Assembly (NCBI RefSeq): GCF_950100655.1
Contig: NZ_CATNLY010000023.1
Span: forward strand, 372,001-436,000
Direction of reading: 5' to 3'
Length of the DNA: 64,000 nt
From: Pleomorphomonas sp. T1.2MG-36
GTDB lineage: Bacteria; Pseudomonadota; Alphaproteobacteria; Rhizobiales; Pleomorphomonadaceae
A program made the translations under genes and the position numbers. Below the pieces are notes generated by a model. The model was not told where the DNA came from. It did not search any database and was given only the letters and a program-made list of their open reading frames with translations. Positions 37,657-51,138 of this stretch are shown one piece after another (the stretch's first letter is position 1; each line of letters opens with the position of its first letter).

Positions 37657-38154
37657 TCAGGCAGCCTTGAGAGCCGCCTGGTTGGCCGACCCCTCGGCGA
37701 TCTTCGTCAGGCCGAGATCGGTCGCCTCTTCCTCGGCCAACGTCTCCTTGAGGAGCTTGGCGGCCTGCTTCTGTCCGATCAGCTCCGCCCAGCGGCACAT
37801 CGTGCCGTAGCGCGCGATCTCGTAATGCTCGACCGCCTGCGCGGTGGCGATCAGGCCGGCATCGATGGCGTCGGAACCGGCGAAGGACTCAAGAACCTCC
37901 TCGCCTTCCTCGATGATGCCCTCGATGGCGGGGCAGGTCTTGCCGCGCGCGGGCTTGCCGATGAGTTCGAACACCTGCTGCAGGCGCTCGATCTGGACTT
38001 CGGTTTCCTCGCGGTGCTTCTCAAAAGCGGCCTGGAGCTCCGGCGACTGCGCGCCCCGGGCCATTTTCGGCAGGGCCTTCAGGATCTTGCGCTCGGCGTA
38101 GTAGACGTCCTTGAGCATGTCCAGGAAAAGATCGTCGAGTGACTTGGTCTTCAT
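37657..38154 (-). CDS. DUF892 (YciE/YciF) ferritin-like stress protein, copy 1
   Basis: This 165-residue four-helix protein has ferritin-like acidic/His positions in KDVYYAERKILKALPKMA, HREETEVQIERL, AVEHYEIARYGTM and LAEEEATDLGL. DUF892 proteins are small ferritin-like proteins, commonly stress-induced; no enzymatic reaction is established. A GAGGTG site supports the start. A GGAAC-N16-GGTT promoter-like pair lies about 40 bases upstream, placing it in the presumed EcfG regulon. It ends at a strong terminator, so it is monocistronic. Confidence 0.85.
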   Translation of the reverse strand: MKTKSLDDLFLDMLKDVYYAERKILKALPKMARGAQSPELQAAFEKHREETEVQIERLQQVFELIGKPARGKTCPAIEGIIEEGEEVLESFAGSDAIDAGLIATAQAVEHYEIARYGTMCRWAELIGQKQAAKLLKETLAEEEATDLGLTKIAEGSANQAALKAA

Positions 38155-38193
38155 GGCTTCACCTCTGGGGCTGAAAGGAAGTTGCCCCTTTCA

Positions 38194-38218
38194 AACCGGC
38201 GGCGGGACGGATTGTTCC
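38194..38218 (-). promoter_or_regulatory. EcfG-type promoter of DUF892 copy 1
   Basis: Read on the minus strand: GGAAC, 16 bases, GGTT. The consensus for EcfG sigma factors is GGAAC-N16/17-CGTT. The -10 element is about 40 bases from the start codon. Confidence 0.6.
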
Positions 38219-38263
38219 AGGCGGTCATGACGCCGAAGCCGCGTTCATTCCACCGGCCGTACG

Positions 38264-38288
38264 GGAACAATCGATGGCTTGGGCGATT
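38264..38288 (+). promoter_or_regulatory. Weak EcfG-type promoter candidate of the GlgC-like gene
   Basis: GGAAC followed after 16 bases by GATT. The -35 matches and continues identically to the promoter at 40501 for 12 bases (GGAACAATCGAT), but the -10 is poor. Confidence 0.3.
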
Positions 38289-38317
38289 TCACTACCTCCA
38301 ACCACCGGAGGTCAAAA

Positions 38318-39448
38318 ATGCATTTTCCGTCCTTCCCTTCGTTCCCGGCTGCCGACGCTTTCTGCATTCTGCTCGCGGGGGGACAGGGAACGCGGCTTCA
38401 CGAACTCACATCGACCGAATGCAAGCCCGCCATGCCCTTTGCCGGCGGCAAGCTGGTCGATTTCACGATTGCCAATGCCATGCGGTCGGGAATGCCGCAG
38501 GTCCTGGTGGCGACGCAATACCTGCCGGCCAGCCTGACCCGACACCTTGAAACCGAGTGGCGGCACCAGTTTCCGGGCGGCATCGAAATACGCGATGGGT
38601 ATCGGCTGCGGTCCAACGGCTATCGGGGCACGGCGGATGCCGTGCGCGCCAATCTCGCGGAGATCGCGGCAAGCGGCGCCGAGGAAATCCTCGTTCTCTC
38701 CGCCGATCATGTCTATCAGATGGACTATCGCGCCATGCTCGAAAGCCATCGAGCTTCCGGCGCCAAGGTGACCGTCGCCGTGACGAGAGCGCCGCTGGCG
38801 CAGGCGTCCAGCTTCGGCGTACTGTCGGCGGACTCGGACGGGGTGATCGCCGATTTCGCCGAGAAGCCGGCGCGCCCGCATCCCACCCCCGACGATCCCA
38901 CGCATGCGTTGATCAGCATGGGCGTCTACGTGCTGGACCGCCGGTGGCTGTCCGAGATGCTGGCTTTCGAAGACGGCATGGACGACTTCGGACAGGACAT
39001 TCTGCCCGAAGCGGTTCGCCAGGGCGTGGCGCGGGTGCACCAGCCCACTACGAACGGTACCTTCTATTGGCGCGACGTCGGCACGCTCGACAGCTATCGC
39101 CTCGCGCAGTTGGACTTCATCGATCCCGCCAGGGCGCCCCTTCCGCTGCCGGCCGCCACCGTCAAGCCCTCGCGGCAGATGCTGCTGGCCGCCGAGCGAG
39201 GCTCGGTGCTGCTGCCGGGCGCCCGTCTGGGCTACAGGACGCGCGTCGAGCGCGCCATCATCGCCCCCGGTGCGATCGTGCCGGACGGTCTCGTCATCGG
39301 CGAAGATCCTGAAGACGATCAGCGCTGGTTCCGCGTCACGCGCGGCGGCACCGCCCTGGTGACCGCAGCCATGCTGGACCGGTATCGCGAGGAGCGGCCA
39401 CGGCTCCACCTCATCACCCTGCCCTTCCTGCCGGCACGAAGCTCCTAG
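38318..39448 (+). CDS. GlgC-like sugar-1-phosphate nucleotidyltransferase
   Basis: This 376-residue protein has the nucleotidyltransferase signature LLAGGQGTRLHELT at about residues 17-30, SADHVYQMDYRAM, and GVYVLDRRWLSEML. TFYWRDVGTLDSYRLAQLDF, characteristic of ADP-glucose pyrophosphorylases, precedes a shortened C-terminal beta-helix. It would make ADP-glucose from glucose-1-phosphate and ATP. It is shorter than typical bacterial GlgC (about 420), and no glgA, glgB or glgP lies nearby, so it may serve trehalose, another glucan or a different nucleotide sugar. The start has a CGGAGG site. It is probably co-transcribed with the SDR 58 bases downstream. Confidence 0.75.
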   Translation: MHFPSFPSFPAADAFCILLAGGQGTRLHELTSTECKPAMPFAGGKLVDFTIANAMRSGMPQVLVATQYLPASLTRHLETEWRHQFPGGIEIRDGYRLRSNGYRGTADAVRANLAEIAASGAEEILVLSADHVYQMDYRAMLESHRASGAKVTVAVTRAPLAQASSFGVLSADSDGVIADFAEKPARPHPTPDDPTHALISMGVYVLDRRWLSEMLAFEDGMDDFGQDILPEAVRQGVARVHQPTTNGTFYWRDVGTLDSYRLAQLDFIDPARAPLPLPAATVKPSRQMLLAAERGSVLLPGARLGYRTRVERAIIAPGAIVPDGLVIGEDPEDDQRWFRVTRGGTALVTAAMLDRYREERPRLHLITLPFLPARSS

Positions 39449-39506
39449 GCTTCGCGTCGCCCCTCGGTCGGCGTCCTCGCCGGCCAGACCAACACGGAGA
39501 TATCCC

Positions 39507-40397
39507 ATGAGCAGCGAGACCCCATCGGGCGCGCCCCGCTATCCGGACTACCCGAAACCGCCCTTCCCCAAGCAGACCCAGCAGCTTCCGGGCAGCTTCA
39601 GGCTTCTTGAGCCGGCACCCGACCATGGCGAGGAGAGCTGGCGCGGCGCCGGCCGGCTGGAAGGCATGGTCGCCCTGATCACCGGCGGCGACAGCGGCAT
39701 CGGCCGTGCCGTTGCCATCGCCTATGCCCGCGAGGGCGCCGACGTCGCGCTTTCCTTTCTGGAGGAGCGTGAAGACGCCACCGACACCGCGCGCCTCGTG
39801 ACCGACTGCGGGCGCCGCTGCCTGCAGCTGCCGGGCGACATCGCCGATCCAGCCCACTGCCGCGACATCGTCAAGCGGGTGGTCGACGAGTTCGGCCGCA
39901 TCGACATCCTCGTCAACAACGCCGCCCACCAGGACACATTCGACAGCCTGGAGGAGATTCCCGACGAGGAATGGCAGCGGACGTTCGCCGTGAACATCCA
40001 TGCCATGTTCTACCTGGCCAAGGCGGCCGTGCCGCACATGCAGCCGGGCGCATCGATCATCAACACCGCCTCGATCAATGCCGATAGCCCGAGCCCCAGC
40101 CTGCTCGCCTATGCCACCACGAAGGGGGCGATCCAGAACTACACCGGCGGCCTCGCGCAACTTCTCGCCGAGAAGGGCATTCGCGTGAACTGCGTCGCGC
40201 CCGGGCCGGTTTGGACACCGCTCATTCCGGCCAGCATGTCGGCGGAGAAGACCTCGCAGTTCGGCGCCAACTATCCCATGAAGCGGCCGGCGCAGCCGGT
40301 GGAGCTCGCGTCGGCCTACGTGATGCTGGCCGAACCCATGTCGAGCTATGTATCGGGTGCCACCATCGCGGTGACCGGCGGCAAGCCGCTGATCTAA
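39507..40397 (+). CDS. Stress-type short-chain dehydrogenase (YghA/YhdF group)
   Basis: This 296-residue SDR has a 45-residue N-terminal extension rich in Pro/Tyr (YPDYPKPPFPKQTQQLPG), a mark of the YghA/YhdF/general-stress SDRs. The cofactor loop is TGGDSGIG (59-66), followed by NNAA, the active-site Ser/Tyr/Lys with YATTK, and VAPGPVWTPL. It reduces a carbonyl with NAD(P)H; the natural substrate is unknown. Operon position behind the GlgC-like gene and a strong terminator afterwards define a two-gene unit in the stress island. Confidence 0.87.
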   Translation: MSSETPSGAPRYPDYPKPPFPKQTQQLPGSFRLLEPAPDHGEESWRGAGRLEGMVALITGGDSGIGRAVAIAYAREGADVALSFLEEREDATDTARLVTDCGRRCLQLPGDIADPAHCRDIVKRVVDEFGRIDILVNNAAHQDTFDSLEEIPDEEWQRTFAVNIHAMFYLAKAAVPHMQPGASIINTASINADSPSPSLLAYATTKGAIQNYTGGLAQLLAEKGIRVNCVAPGPVWTPLIPASMSAEKTSQFGANYPMKRPAQPVELASAYVMLAEPMSSYVSGATIAVTGGKPLI

Positions 40398-40422
40398 GGC
40401 GAGAAGCCCCTTCCAAGACGTC

Positions 40423-40465
40423 GGCCCGCGCCCATCCGGCCAAGTGCCGGAGCGCGGGCCTTTTC
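40423..40465 (+). terminator. Terminator of the GlgC-SDR operon
   Basis: GGCCCGCGC pairs with GCGCGGGCC (9 bp), with an inner CCGGC/GCCGG stem, followed by TTTTC. Confidence 0.85.
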
Positions 40466-40500
40466 TCGACATGGCGAACAGACAACCAGAGCGACAAACC

Positions 40501-40525
40501 GGAACAATCGATCGATCCGCCTGTT
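40501..40525 (+). promoter_or_regulatory. EcfG-type promoter of the BON-domain gene
   Basis: GGAAC (40501-40505), 16-base spacer, TGTT (40522-40525), 50 bases before the start codon. It matches GGAAC-N16-nGTT. Confidence 0.65.
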
Positions 40526-40575
40526 GTTGATTGAGGCCGGTCCGAGGCCGGAGATCGACGAGAGGAGAGATGACA

Positions 40576-41424
40576 ATGGCATACGGGCGAGATGACCGCG
40601 ATTATCCCCGCAACCGGGGCGACGATCGGCAGCGGCTCAGCGGACGCTGGGTTCAGGACGATGACACCGGCTATCTGCGGCGGCGCTTCGAGGACTTCGG
40701 TCCCGGCGAGGACTCCCATGATGGCAGAAGCGATCGGGAAGGCTTGGATTATGGCGACCGGCGATATGGCCGCGGCGCAGGCGGCTACTACGGTGGCTCC
40801 GATCGGCCCTTCGAACGGGAGGGAGGCCACGCCTTCGACTTTGCCCGGCGCGATTCCGGCCGGTCCGATATTGGCGGGCGGGTTGGAGATCCGTCTCTCG
40901 GCGAGACGGACCGCTTCTCCGACGGCGAGGGATATGGCTCGCGTTTCGGCAGCGGCCCTGATCCGCGCTACGGCGACCGGACCGGCCAGGATCCCTCGCG
41001 CAGCTCGCCGCGAGGGGGCTGGCCGCAGAGAGACAACTGGATCAGCCGCTACGTGGCCACCGACGCCCGATCCGGCGAACAGGGTTCGTCGGGACAATCG
41101 GGGTCGTTCCGCGGCAAGGGGCCGAAGGGGTATGTGCGTTCAGACGAGAGGATCCGGGATGACGTCAGCGACCGGCTGAGCGATGAGGATCGCCTGGACG
41201 CTTCGGACATCACCGTCGAAGTCTCGGGAGGGGAAGTCACCCTTTCCGGCTATGTCGACTCACGGCTGGCCAAGCGAATGGCCGAGGATTGCGCCGAACA
41301 GTGCGCTGGCGTCGGCCATATCCAGAACAATCTTCGTGTGCGTTCGGCCGTCGATTCAGGTGCGAACCCAACCGGCTCGGCAACCGAACAATTCGGCGAT
41401 AAGCCAAAGACAACAGACGTCTAG
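40576..41424 (+). CDS. BON-domain protein with long disordered charged N-terminus
   Basis: This 282-residue protein has two parts. Residues 1-180 are low-complexity, very rich in Gly, Asp, Arg, Ser and Tyr, and likely disordered. Residues about 187-256 form a BON domain like that of OsmY (SDERIRDDVSDRL, ITVEVSGGEVTLSGYV, GHIQNNLRV). BON domains are thought to bind phospholipid or act as periplasmic chaperones, but no signal peptide is seen here. The second ATG (40576) was chosen since the AGAGGAG site then has normal spacing. It is probably expressed under general stress. Confidence 0.82.
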   Translation: MAYGRDDRDYPRNRGDDRQRLSGRWVQDDDTGYLRRRFEDFGPGEDSHDGRSDREGLDYGDRRYGRGAGGYYGGSDRPFEREGGHAFDFARRDSGRSDIGGRVGDPSLGETDRFSDGEGYGSRFGSGPDPRYGDRTGQDPSRSSPRGGWPQRDNWISRYVATDARSGEQGSSGQSGSFRGKGPKGYVRSDERIRDDVSDRLSDEDRLDASDITVEVSGGEVTLSGYVDSRLAKRMAEDCAEQCAGVGHIQNNLRVRSAVDSGANPTGSATEQFGDKPKTTDV

Positions 41425-41439
41425 GCGTCCTCTCGCCAA

Positions 41440-41474
41440 CCGCCCCGGTTCGCGATCCGCACGAACCGGGGCGG
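41440..41474 (+). terminator. Long hairpin after the BON-domain gene
   Basis: CCGCCCCGGTTCG pairs perfectly over 13 bp with CGAACCGGGGCGG around a 9-base loop, 15 bases after the stop codon. No T tract follows. Confidence 0.65.
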
Positions 41475-41584
41475 CGAATTGAAACCGACCGAAGATAAAC
41501 CGACCATTTCGCAGGAGATTCCGGTTTCGGCGCGCTTTGCCAGGTAATAAGGTTTTCAGACGGTGCGCCTATGCTGTAGCGATC

Positions 41585-41791
41585 ATGTCTTCAAACCATC
41601 TTCTCCCAGACGACCCATGCGGCGAACAACGACCTGAGGGTGACCTTGACCAGTTGAAGGCGACAGCCCGACGACTCGTCGATGCCATCGCCGCCGAGCC
41701 GGTGCCGGAGCGCTTGCGCGAGCTGGCCGTGCAGCTCGGCGAGTTGATCGACCGCCAGCGGGAGAAGGGCGACACCCAGCGATCAGAGTGA
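41585..41791 (+). CDS. NepR-like small anti-sigma protein (candidate)
   Basis: This 68-residue protein contains QLKATARRLVDAI and EPVPERLRELAVQLGEL. It resembles the two-helix core of NepR, which usually reads like VYDDVVNEPVPDRFLDLLNQL. NepR holds EcfG sigma factors inactive until phosphorylated PhyR binds it. An EcfG-like sigma gene lies about 1 kb away on the other strand, although nepR and ecfG are normally adjacent in one operon. The ribosome site is weak. Resemblance is by eye; paralogous NepR proteins are common in Rhizobiales. Confidence 0.5.
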   Translation: MSSNHLLPDDPCGEQRPEGDLDQLKATARRLVDAIAAEPVPERLRELAVQLGELIDRQREKGDTQRSE

Positions 41792-41862
41792 GCCGCTGAG
41801 GGGGCCGCCGCCGCGAGATACGCGACGGCTTGTTCAATCGACCTGCTACAATCCGGGTCACA

Positions 41863-42369
41863 TTACCGGCGTGCCGGCAGACCGGCTTCGTCGCGAGCCA
41901 GGAAAATGCGCGTCGTCTGATCGAGATGATCGAACAACCAGTCGGCCATATCCTGTTCTTCGGCGAGGTTCTCTTCGAAAATCGAGATCGCCGTGGTGTC
42001 TTCAAGAACGGCGGCCGTCGAGATCAACACCTTGTAGGCGGCGATTTCCATCTGCTCGAAAGTGTAGCTCGCCATCACGCCCTTGATCACCTCGTCGTCG
42101 GCAAACATGCCGCCGAGAGCCTGACCGAGGGCCGTCGCTTTGCCAAGCGTGTCCTTGACCACGGAGGCGCCGCTATCGCGCCCTTCAAGCAGCTTCCGGA
42201 GGGATTCGGCCTGGCGCTCAGTTTCGGCGACGTGCTTTTCCATCCGGGCACAAAGGACCGGATAGTTCTCGAGGCGCGACAACATGCCGCGCATCATCGT
42301 CAGGGCCTGTTCTTCCATGGCATGGGCGTCGCGAAGCCAGGCCAGATAGTGTTCACGGATATCGTCCAT
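41863..42369 (-). CDS. DUF892 ferritin-like stress protein, copy 2
   Basis: This 168-residue ferritin-like protein starts MDDIREHYLAWLRDAHAMEEQAL with an AGGAGG site. Acidic/His positions typical of the fold appear in HAMEEQALTMM, KHVAETERQAESLRKLLEG, YTFEQMEIAAYKVL and NLAEEQDMADWLFDHL. It is clearly different from copy 1 at 37657, so this is an old divergence rather than a recent duplication. A GGAAC-N16-GGTT promoter sits 163 bases upstream. Function in the family is unproven; a stress role is inferred. Confidence 0.82.
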   Translation of the reverse strand: MDDIREHYLAWLRDAHAMEEQALTMMRGMLSRLENYPVLCARMEKHVAETERQAESLRKLLEGRDSGASVVKDTLGKATALGQALGGMFADDEVIKGVMASYTFEQMEIAAYKVLISTAAVLEDTTAISIFEENLAEEQDMADWLFDHLDQTTRIFLARDEAGLPARR

Positions 42370-42531
42370 GGTCTTGCCCTCCTGGGGGATGTGGCGATGA
42401 ACTCGTTCGGCGTGCACCTCGGAGAAGGAAAGCAAGGCTGTCTTCCTCCAACCGCCGGCGCTTGAAACCGTTGCGGCTTGCCGTTCACGAGACGGCAGCC
42501 TCGGCGCATCCTCACGGCGCGCGAATAATCC

Positions 42532-42556
42532 AACCGATAACCCCTAGAGAAGTTCC
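42532..42556 (-). promoter_or_regulatory. EcfG-type promoter of DUF892 copy 2
   Basis: Read on the minus strand: GGAAC, 16 bases, GGTT, the same element arrangement as in front of DUF892 copy 1. It lies between the sigma gene stop and the DUF892 start. Confidence 0.6.
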
Positions 42557-42614
42557 ATCCCGATTGGTTCGCTGTTGGCGTTGCCAGCTCTCGGTCGACC
42601 GCCTGAGCCGATAG

Positions 42615-43091
42615 CTAGATTTCCTCGCCCATGGCGGTGCGCAGCATTCGGCGGCCACGATTGATGCGACTTTTGATCGTGCCGATGTCGCATTCGAGGA
42701 TTTCGGCGGCCCTGGCGTAACTCTCCTCGAGCACCACCACCAGCACGATCGCCTCGCGATAGTGGACGGGCAGCTCCTCCAGGGCCTGCTCAAGCTCCCT
42801 GATGCGCACCTGCCATTCCTGGGGCGCCGAGATCGTCGGTTGCTGGGAGGCGCAGTCCTCGTCGCCCGTTCGTTCCCGGTTTCGCTTGATGCAGTTGGAA
42901 TAGAAGCGATTGCGCATGATCGTGAACAACCAGGCCCGCAAGTTGGTGCCGGGCGTATAGCTGGAGATGTTCTCGATCGCTCTCAGCAGGGTTTCCTGGA
43001 CCAGGTCGTCGGCATCGGTGGCGTTGCCACACAAGGAGCGCGCAAAGGCACGCATAGCCGGCAAGTAAGAAAGAATATCATCGGACATCAT
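42615..43091 (-). CDS. ECF sigma factor, EcfG-like
   Basis: This 158-residue sigma-70 family protein has only regions 2 and 4. Region 2 (about 10-75) contains DADDLVQETLLRAIE and LRAWLFTIMRNRFYSN, the -10 recognition part. Region 4 (about 95-150) contains LEELPVHYREAIVLV and the HTH AAEILECDIGTIKSRINRGRRML. The NLRAWLFTI..N.FYS pattern is like EcfG/RpoE2 of the alphaproteobacterial general stress response. Two adjacent ATGs (43091, 43088) are possible starts. Four promoter matches and a NepR-like gene nearby support the assignment. No EcfG promoter precedes the gene itself. Confidence 0.82.
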   Translation of the reverse strand: MMSDDILSYLPAMRAFARSLCGNATDADDLVQETLLRAIENISSYTPGTNLRAWLFTIMRNRFYSNCIKRNRERTGDEDCASQQPTISAPQEWQVRIRELEQALEELPVHYREAIVLVVVLEESYARAAEILECDIGTIKSRINRGRRMLRTAMGEEI

Positions 43092-43449
43092 GATGCGCTT
43101 TTGAGTTTCGAGCCGATATGGACCAACGGGCGGTCGCAAGATCGGCCACCCGCTGAATTGGACGAAACGCTTCCAACTGAATTCCTCAGACACGAAACGG
43201 TTCCGTCTTGCATCCCATTCACACGAAAATTGCCGCCGGACGCAGACAACCATCAGTGTACGTCAAGGTGTGTTCCGGTTGAGGCGAAATACCCTGGCAC
43301 CGGCAGTGGAACTATTGCCGCTGCGGGACGTTGAAAAGGCGGTGCGGTGAGGTCGAAACATCGCCTCCGCCGCTCTCCAAAGTCACCGGCAGGTGCCGTC
43401 TCTCGGCTCCGCTTGACCGGCAATAACCCCAACGTCCGAGGAGATTCCG
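43092..43449. other. Intergenic region sigma factor / PepSY-like gene
   Basis: This 358-base region has no gene. It holds a direct repeat CGAAACG[C/G]TTCC at 43163-43174 and 43193-43204 (30-base period) upstream of the sigma gene, and an EcfG promoter at 43308-43332 facing the other way. Confidence 0.55.
43308..43332 (+). promoter_or_regulatory. EcfG-type promoter, perfect consensus
   Basis: GGAAC (43308-43312), 16-base spacer, CGTT (43329-43332). This matches the EcfG consensus at every position and faces the PepSY-like and glycine-zipper stress genes. Confidence 0.75.
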
Positions 43450-43788
43450 ATGAAGCTCGCCTCACTCTGCATGGCCACCGCTCTTGCCTTCAGCACCAGC
43501 GCGTTTGCCCAGACCTCCACCGAACCGGCCACCCCTGCGCCGGACCCCGCCGCGCCGACGGCACCCAACACGCCTCCGGCGCAGACGAGCCCGTCCGACG
43601 AGAACCTGACGCCGGGCGCCAACAGCTTCACCGAGGCGCAGGCGAGGTCCTGGCTCGAAGAGGCCGGCTATACCGAAGTGACCGGCCTCGTTCAGTCCGA
43701 GGACGGCATTTGGCGCGGCCATGCCCGCCGCAACGGCGCAACCGTCGCCGTGGCCGTCGACTACAAGGGCACCATCAGCACTGAATAA
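43450..43788 (+). CDS. Small secreted PepSY-like protein
   Basis: This 112-residue protein has a clear signal peptide (cut near residue 20, STSAFA|Q), then a Thr/Pro/Ala-rich linker to about residue 55. A single PepSY-like module follows (FTEAQARSWLEEAGYTEVTGLVQSEDGIWRGHA). PepSY-like modules occur in secreted proteins and peptidase propeptides and are thought to be inhibitory or binding units. A perfect EcfG promoter lies 118 bases upstream. It is followed 69 bases later by another stress gene on the same strand. Confidence 0.75.
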   Translation: MKLASLCMATALAFSTSAFAQTSTEPATPAPDPAAPTAPNTPPAQTSPSDENLTPGANSFTEAQARSWLEEAGYTEVTGLVQSEDGIWRGHARRNGATVAVAVDYKGTISTE

Positions 43789-43857
43789 GTGCGGCGCCTC
43801 CCGACCGGACAGCCTCTAAGCCACAGTCAAAAGCGACACACTGGGAAGGATAGCATC

Positions 43858-44436
43858 ATGAGCACGCACACCCGACTTTACGACACTTGGTCCGACGCCA
43901 TGGCGGTCGTTGATCGTCTCCGCGCAGCCCGGATCTCCAATGACGACATTTCCGTCATCTCCCCCGAAAGCGAAGACAATCGCGTGAGCGACGGCGCCGA
44001 AGCCACGGCTGCCGGGTCCGGCATCGGCGCGGTGCTCGGCGGAGGCGCCGGCGCGCTTGCTGGCGTCGGCATGCTCGCCATTCCGGGCCTCGGCCCGATC
44101 GTGGCGACCGGCTGGTTCGTATCCACACTGGCCGGCCTCGCGGCCGGCGCGGTGGCCGGCGGCGTGGCGGGCGGCATCGTCGACGCGTTGACCAGTTCCG
44201 GCCTCACCGCGGAAGAGGCGCAGGTCTATGCCGAGGCCATCCGGCGCGGCGGCACCATGGTGACGGTGCGCGTCGACGACAGCGAGGACGCCATGGTGGC
44301 GCGCCTTCTCGATGAAACGCCACCGGTCAATCTCACCGAGCGCGAACAGCTCTACCGCGAGAGCGGGTGGACGGGCTTCGACCCGACGCTGGACCCGCGC
44401 GTCGACGACCTGACGCGCCGGCCGCCGCCGGGCTGA
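43858..44436 (+). CDS. General stress protein with central glycine-zipper membrane segment
   Basis: This 192-residue protein has an N-terminal alpha/beta segment (TRLYDTWSDAMAVVDRLRAARISNDDISVIS), like the general stress protein 17M / DUF1269 group. A Gly/Ala-rich hydrophobic stretch (about 52-115) with repeated GxxxG spacing follows, then a soluble tail. The hydrophobic part could insert in membrane. A GGAAGGATAG site supports the start. It is likely read from the EcfG promoter of the gene before it. Function unknown. Confidence 0.78.
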   Translation: MSTHTRLYDTWSDAMAVVDRLRAARISNDDISVISPESEDNRVSDGAEATAAGSGIGAVLGGGAGALAGVGMLAIPGLGPIVATGWFVSTLAGLAAGAVAGGVAGGIVDALTSSGLTAEEAQVYAEAIRRGGTMVTVRVDDSEDAMVARLLDETPPVNLTEREQLYRESGWTGFDPTLDPRVDDLTRRPPPG

Positions 44437-51000: not shown

Positions 51001-51138
51001 GAGCCTCCCATCGGCCAAGCCCGCGCTTCGATCAGACGGCGAACCCTGTGTCGCCCGGCATGTTCCATCCCTTTGTTGTCACGCAACTCCGGAGGCAAAA
51101 CCGGTCCCCCTTCTGCTGGAGTTGCTCCAGGCTTCGGT

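Follow-up and report, generated by a model that had tools for sequence, protein, structure and literature searches.

Which genes does a non-canonical EcfG-type sigma factor serve, and what keeps it inactive? Both questions are raised by a 64,000-nucleotide stretch of the Pleomorphomonas sp. T1.2MG-36 genome, which was analysed as a whole and is called the window here (C23:372001-436000 of a 5.2-Mb assembly in 54 contigs; genome label G000). An island at 38155..44436 of the window carries such a sigma gene among genes for DUF892, BON and PepSY-like proteins, and promoter-like GGAAC elements face these genes. Two or more EcfG-like sigma factors are present in half of the completed alphaproteobacterial genomes (PMC3892343), and published work regards their control as open. 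We lean towards the island being a satellite module of the general stress response (GSR), in which the non-canonical sigma factor would be held by its own NepR-derived anti-sigma factor, here named NepL, and would act on local effector genes.

A non-canonical EcfG sigma factor

The proposed pair of regulators is encoded as follows:
42615..43091, minus strand: non-canonical EcfG-type sigma factor, 158 residues (Pfam domains, relatives, tree)
41585..41791, plus strand: NepR-like small protein NepL, 68 residues, proposed cognate anti-sigma factor (Pfam, profile, coding pattern, model)

A first-pass annotation of this DNA had placed an EcfG-like sigma gene in the middle of the island. This was borne out, with a start likelier at 43091 than at 43253. 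The open reading frame (ORF) extends up to 43253, and the longer frame is also open in G007 and G016, but stops lie inside the matching stretch in half of the ten further copies in the genus (G009, G012, G013, G014 and G018). Because of these stops, and because the stretch contains a conserved promoter-like block, it is more likely that translation starts at 43091 and that the DNA up to 43253 is promoter DNA.

The protein matches PF04542 and PF08281 above their cut-offs and has no other domains; PhyR_sigma2 scores 54.3 bits against a cut-off of 27. In a tree of 111 rows, whose bootstrap was not quite settled and which held no named reference EcfG, the window sigma grouped with Paracoccaceae sigmas at 100/99, inside a large non-canonical EcfG-type set and separate from where the canonical EcfG1 proteins of the genus fall. 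The closest named match by sigma gene, among the matches listed, was Pleomorphomonas carboxyditropha with 81%. Domains and tree position mark the window sigma as a non-canonical paralogue of EcfG.

The canonical phyR-nepR-ecfG locus lies on another contig (C12:747k) and has the same type of motif at C12:747379 and 747435. PhyR_sigma2 has four matches in the genome, of which one, at C12:747141, was read as PhyR. No PhyR was found in the window, where the only PhyR_sigma2 match is the sigma factor itself. A candidate third EcfG at C12:414k was rejected: it falls outside the EcfG rows of the tree, and its ORF overlaps the start of an ORF that looks, from its translation, like a membrane anti-sigma factor.

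For comparison, 20 genomes of the family were used, 11 of which carry a window-type sigma (E < 1e-90). The island alignments have 11 rows, i.e. the source genome and the ten other same-genus genomes with this sigma. These rows are not all independent, since G014 and G017 are identical at the DUF892b and PepSY-like sites. Public loci were the best 80 of 466 relatives, chosen for EcfG2-type sigmas and reaching up to 8 kb per side; one of them (L003) is the same genome as G007 and was left out of the island counts. An even draw of 121 genomes sampled the order.

Promoter elements of the island

Four elements stand in front of the genes:
38194..38218, minus strand: EcfG-type element GGAAC-N16-GGTT facing the DUF892a gene, intact in 9 of 9 aligned genomes
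40501..40525, plus strand: EcfG-type element GGAAC-N16-TGTT facing the BON gene, intact in 9 of 9 aligned genomes
42532..42556, minus strand: EcfG-type element GGAAC-N16-GGTT facing the DUF892b gene, GGAAC in 10 of 11 and CGGTT in 11 of 11 genomes
43308..43332, plus strand: EcfG-type element GGAAC-N16-CGTT facing the PepSY-like gene, GGAAC and GTT in 11 of 11 genomes

A pattern search returned all four with exactly the coordinates and strands of the first-pass annotation, which had also named the genes correctly as those of two DUF892 proteins, a BON protein and a secreted PepSY-like protein, the last with a PepSY_2 match below cut-off. Its perfect CGTT at 43308-43332 was likewise found and is the only CGTT among the four. 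Its proposal of a local cluster holds insofar as all four sites are conserved, whereas density alone is weak evidence. The window contains five GGAAC-N16-nGTT matches (the fifth at 51042-51066, minus strand) against 1.14 expected, and five or more appeared in 2 of 100 shuffles; in a simulation, four of the five sites fell within 5.1 kb with P = 0.009.

A chance cluster of sites beside a small ORF that is a spurious frame could appeal to the genome-wide figures. There, the motif has 166 matches against 145 in the reversed control (63 against 48 for the CGTT version), and four of 166 uniformly placed sites lay within 5.1 kb somewhere in the genome with P = 0.09 (simulation). Such an explanation is contradicted by the conservation of the four sites together with the coding signature of the ORF described below, and we regard it as extremely improbable. 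The mean share of the commonest base is 0.98-1.00 in the -35 elements and 1.00 in GTT, but 0.75-0.80 in the spacers (9, 9, 11 and 11 genomes). We judge the elements to be real because place, -35 and -10 were kept while the spacers diverged. The four elements are thus more than chance, for which conservation is strong evidence and counting alone barely any.

The nine rows of the DUF892a element exclude G012, which retains only gene fragments, and G017, whose contig starts inside the SDR gene. The nine rows of the BON element exclude G012 and G013, where no SDR match marked the place; in G014 and G017 this element is present although no BON match lies behind it. At the DUF892b element, G012 has GGAGC and is the only deviant among the 11.

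The list of the first-pass annotation comprised four real elements and missed two further ones with GGAAC:
38264..38288, plus strand: GGAAC-N16-GATT element facing glgC-SDR, with a -10 weaker than consensus
43180..43204, minus strand: GGAACCG...AATT element lying 113 bp ahead of the sigma start, a candidate promoter for that gene

In the element facing glgC-SDR, GGAAC is invariant in all nine aligned genomes, and GATT occurs in five of the six whose -10 lies in the alignment. All 11 genomes keep GGAACCG in the sigma-gene element, at a distance of 113-117 bp from the ATG of the sigma gene, and the -10 is AATT (CATT in G018) in place of CGTT. Between this element and the sigma start, 10 of 11 genomes retain a block GTTTCGTCC (43160-43168, minus strand). 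A scan of 41380-43460 for sigma-70 promoters found none.

A short gene that accompanies the sigma factor

The NepL gene had been overlooked in the first-pass annotation. Among the 11 genomes its differences are distributed over codon positions 1/2/3 as 470/284/971, whereas the 48 nucleotides upstream give a flat 225/238/260 (G009 left out). By this contrast NepL is a real gene. Orthologues (E <= 1.2e-9) occur in exactly those 11 of the 20 family genomes that carry the window-type sigma, and none was found below E = 0.01 in the other nine. A wider NepL profile adds one match in G005, 0.6 kb from an EcfG-type sigma of 45%.

A hidden Markov model was built from ten sequences of the island genomes and iterated once with the better matches. 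In the 80 public loci it found 44 ORFs at E < 0.01 in the first round and 56 ORFs in 55 loci after iteration, one of these loci (L003) being the seed genome G007; the reversed ORFs gave no match in either round. NepL lies on the strand opposite to the sigma gene in 51 of 54 public loci (E < 0.001), at a distance below 200 bp in 18 of them and above 1.5 kb in another 18. PhyR is present in two of the 80 loci.

Five plasmid regions were also examined, four from 1215 listed records and that of R. etli by accession. NepL adjoins the sigma gene in the S. meliloti and P. alcaliphilus plasmids and lies within 3 kb of it in Martelella and Rhizobium sp. ACO-34A. A tblastn search of plasmids with the 68 residues (E <= 10) returned nine records, of which five from Ketogulonicigenium had E 0.1-0.2 and the other four E 0.7-9; each Ketogulonicigenium match is 84 bp from a matched EcfG2-type sigma. 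An EcfG2-type sigma, a NepR-like ORF and DUF892 with a GGAAC element are clustered in several other lineages. In the annotated plasmid records examined, the NepL gene is labelled at most as hypothetical.

One structure separates NepL from the BON gene:
41440..41474, plus strand: strong hairpin between BON and NepL, probably a transcription end (folding energy)

Folding of 41425-41490 gave -32.5 kcal/mol with z -3.7. We had considered NepL as a negative-feedback gene of the BON promoter, and rejected this in view of the intervening hairpin, of a conserved block without GGAAC that NepL has upstream, and of a sense element in only 2 of 54 loci. Such feedback may still operate in G014 and G017, because in these genomes, lacking a BON match, the BON element fronts NepL.

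Relation of NepL to NepR

In the 121 genomes of the order the NepL profile matched 31 places at E <= 0.01, and 21 of these coincide, by eye, with places of Pfam NepR. Conversely, Pfam NepR matches 10 of 28 NepL sequences at E < 0.1, with 3.4e-4 as the best value. Against PDB, the two top matches of the profile are NepR chains (E 0.10 and 0.13). A search with the single 68-residue sequence gave only chance-level matches in PDB; a canonical NepR used as control query reached the NepR chains only at E 0.12-0.34. The AlphaFold model of NepL has helices at 18-37 and 42-67 around an EPVP turn, with a mean predicted local distance difference test (pLDDT) of 79.8 and a predicted template modelling score (pTM) of 0.40. 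Because of the 21 shared places, the NepR chains in PDB and the two-helix model, NepL is most likely derived from NepR.

We named it NepR-like and did not file it as NepR because an aromatic residue is never present six residues before the EPxP turn. This residue is aromatic in none of 64 NepL rows (L076 read by eye; L003 repeating G007), but is Tyr in 19 and Phe in one of 20 readable canonical NepRs. For the latter, 30 loci were fetched and yielded 22 rows, 17 anchored by script, three (L175, L179 and L185) read by eye, and two (L188 and L196) in the wrong frame. The LRxxY/F motif ahead of the turn is not found in NepL, and the LR pair is absent as well. In S. melonis NepR, exchange of L32 and Y36 to alanine lowers function (PMC6599016). 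Judged by the LRxxY spacing, the NepL positions would correspond to L32 and Y36; the position of the aromatic residue is one tied to PhyR binding. Release by the usual PhyR is doubtful, since both the aromatic residue and the LR pair are missing.

These residues also bear on whether NepL acts on a sigma factor at all. NepL could instead titrate PhyR as an anti-anti-anti-sigma factor and bind no sigma. Precedents are NepR-type proteins that occur in addition to canonical NepR: NepR2 of S. melonis acts on PhyR (PMC6599016), and no EcfG binding was found for the NepR paralogues of M. extorquens (Francez-Charlot 2016, PMC4814048). However, these proteins are reported to retain residues that contact PhyR, and PhyR binding is reported for NepR2 and for two of the three paralogues in M. 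extorquens (PMC6599016, PMC4814048), while NepL does not keep the equivalents of L32 and Y36 and lacks the aromatic one in all rows. Moreover, the scarcity of PhyR in the public loci and the fact that NepL travels with the sigma gene speak against titration, which we hold to be improbable.

Effector genes and the sigma factors that may read them

The remaining genes of the island are:
37657..38154, minus strand: DUF892 (ferritin-like) protein a, 165 residues (PF05974, 207 bits)
38318..39448, plus strand: GlgC-like nucleotidyltransferase, with pieces or no match in several relatives
39507..40397, plus strand: SDR oxidoreductase (domain match)
40570..41424, plus strand: BON-domain protein, 284 residues (PF04972, 70.6 bits)
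41863..42369, minus strand: DUF892 protein b, 168 residues (PF05974, 145 bits)
43450..43788, plus strand: small secreted PepSY-like protein, 112 residues (PepSY_2 14.1 bits, below the cut-off of 24.3)
43858..44436, plus strand: YflT-domain stress protein (PF11181, 26.4 bits against a cut-off of 26.2)

Every one of the 11 genomes has the YflT gene next after the PepSY-like gene, and the two probably share one transcript. A sense GGAAC lies 38-64 bp upstream of all 18 family matches of DUF892a with 45% identity or more, nine of them in other genera; distant DUF892 paralogues have a sense element in one of four readable cases (L243 was clipped). In the public loci, DUF892a (at least 55% identity) has a sense GGAAC within 300 bp in 32 of 33 cases, with three antisense. 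The same test gave 4 of 4 for DUF892b and 1 of 1 for PepSY (L003). The sigma gene itself, in the 80 loci, has the element in sense in 38 and in antisense in 36. The reversed motif was found nowhere in this test except once at the sigma gene. No DUF892a match was found in the three genus members without the sigma, nor in G012, where fragments remain. G017 has only a distant DUF892 paralogue because its contig begins beyond the DUF892a gene.

The first-pass annotation had regarded these genes as the probable regulon of the island's sigma. Promoter-like elements and an EcfG-type sigma are supported, but a regulon of this sigma alone is only plausible, because the EcfG1 locus of the same genome has the same elements and because of the precedent of S. 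meliloti rpoE5. It is conceivable, though we think it rather unlikely, that the elements are ordinary promoters of canonical EcfG1 and that the window sigma, residing among EcfG1 targets, acts downstream as a minor amplifier or is a near-silent paralogue. Besides the motifs at the canonical locus, the DUF892a sense element argues for this, being present at 9 of 9 places in five genomes from other genera (G001, G002, G004, G005 and G006), which lack the window-type sigma but have other EcfG-type paralogues. S. meliloti rpoE5 is a target of canonical RpoE2, and a single putative target emerged when RpoE5 was overexpressed (PMC6180224). On the other hand, sigma, NepL and DUF892a are all absent from three genus members, including G015 with a canonical ecfG1 (other island genes were not sought there), and R. 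etli EcfG2 governs katG and other unique targets (PMC3892343).

The proposed module

In the satellite module, which we still favour, the sigma gene would be transcribed from its own GGAAC promoter and NepL would hold the sigma factor inactive. A signal, perhaps one other than the usual PhyR, would free the sigma factor, which would then direct RNA polymerase to the elements facing BON, both DUF892 genes and the PepSY/YflT unit; glgC-SDR may be a further target. Since the sigma gene has its own GGAAC element, EcfG1, the sigma factor itself, or both may raise the sigma level under stress, and the effector promoters probably serve both sigmas. Binding of the sigma factor by NepL, reading of the sites by this sigma and the nature of the releasing signal are what we infer from the arrangement described.

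Several results weigh against this reading. NepL scores 13.8-14.0 bits against Pfam NepR, below the cut-off of 25.7. No profile match was found in 25 of the 80 EcfG2-type loci, nor in 25 kb around R. etli EcfG2, and only 4 of the 121 order genomes (G086, G000, G063 and G005) have one below E = 1e-6. A sense GGAAC within 300 bp upstream of NepL is absent in 52 of 54 loci (three have it antisense). Of 13 BON relatives in the public loci, just two carry a sense element, one of them in L003, and two an antisense element. The single RpoE5 target belongs here as well. Finally, a relative of NepR need not be an anti-sigma factor, given the findings on the M. extorquens and S. melonis paralogues.

Comparison with known systems

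S. meliloti RpoE5 (SMb21484, pSymB) is the nearest parallel. It is an ECF15 sigma, in the classification of the paper, encoded away from the rpoE2-rsiA1-rsiB1 locus, with a small RsiA1-like ORF directly downstream on the opposite strand and a sigma promoter having GGAAC and no CGTT (Table 1, PMC6180224). Lang et al. describe an unannotated RsiA1/RsiA2-like ORF opposite SMb21687 beside rpoE5, apparently transcribed and not assayed by them (Lang 2018, PMC6180224). SMb21687, on the other strand, was marked by them as the likely anti-sigma factor; neither candidate was tested there. In the S. meliloti RCAM1750 record, the published rpoE5 promoter has an exact match before the sigma gene; immediately behind this gene, on the other strand, lies an ORF that the NepL profile detects. 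From place and strand, this is presumably the ORF of Lang 2018. In Pleomorphomonas, by contrast, NepL lies between BON and DUF892b, and DUF892b separates it from the sigma gene.

The canonical locus at C12:747k resembles the island in having an EcfG-type sigma, a NepR-type small protein and GGAAC-N16-CGTT elements. There, however, phyR is divergent from nepR and ecfG, which share a strand and overlap, while in the island no PhyR was found and NepL, lacking LRxxY, is encoded on the strand opposite to the sigma gene. R. etli EcfG2 (PF00052) is likewise a non-canonical EcfG, and a gene annotated as ferritin-like is divergent beside RHE_RS26680 (p42f), which presumably is PF00052. It differs in having no NepL in the 25 kb searched, which agrees with the statement of Jans 2013 that no anti-sigma gene lies near it (PMC3892343).

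A search of open-access literature, including PMC7083833 (Sphingopyxis), PMC8103513 (ECF review) and PMC3188799 (R. etli ppGpp), found no description of a NepR-like protein that is conserved in several families as a partner of EcfG2-type sigmas. Prior art there consists of one RsiA1-like ORF next to the rpoE5 gene of S. meliloti (Lang 2018).

Other probable stress-promoter groups and an abandoned motif

GGAACAAT-N14-GTT was considered as a distinct promoter type of the window sigma. It has 11 matches in the source genome against none in the reversed controls; two of these lie in a 261-bp repeat and at least one inside a very long coding frame. In the 11 sigma-bearing genomes the counts are 11, 10, 4, 8, 5, 2, 2, 6, 8, 5 and 6, in three genus members without the sigma 0, 1 and 1, and in other genera 2, 4, 2, 5, 3 and 1. 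Specificity of GGAACAAT was dropped because the counts do not clearly follow the sigma.

Several loci with this motif or with GGAAC elements were noted. At G000 C1:645500-656500 (L117), a dense group of GGAAC-N16-nGTT faces frames that, from their translations, resemble glycogen synthase, SDR and KatE-type catalase; it is probably a second local cluster of stress promoters. In three copies of a tandem unit of about 261 bp on G000 C6 (L119:2414-3285), the minus strand carries a GGAACAAT or GGAACAAG element, with no clear gene in front; Rfam gave no match in L119 and L163. Three GGAACAAT elements with 39-bp spacing lie on one strand at G009 C10:177559-177661. At G000 C12:811455 (L120), another small secreted frame of about 96 residues, which by eye resembles the PepSY-like protein, begins 16 bp behind GGAACAAT-N13-TGTT. 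At G000 C12:868683 and 871111 (L121), a KGG-repeat frame stands behind GGAACAAT and a 594-residue frame, trehalose-pathway-like from its translation, behind another element.

In the same-genus genomes G011 and G019 no EcfG-type sigma was found (a 34% match in G011 lies outside the EcfG rows). GGAACC-N15-CGTT is not enriched there, with 3 matches against 10 in the control for G011 and 4 against 7 for G019. It looks as if the general stress response had been lost in both.

Implications

Tentatively, we extend the proposal beyond Pleomorphomonas. Many EcfG2-type sigmas regarded as orphans in Rhizobiaceae, Phyllobacteriaceae, Paracoccaceae and Pleomorphomonadaceae might have a NepR-derived anti-sigma factor without the PhyR contact, and hence a second stress switch released otherwise than by PhyR. 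A short gene that accompanies such sigmas in several lineages makes it possible to test, concretely and at little cost, how these sigmas are kept inactive. With the PhyR-contact residue missing, the second switch would be expected to respond to another signal, and the two DUF892 proteins, the BON, PepSY-like and YflT proteins form a short list of its possible protective means.

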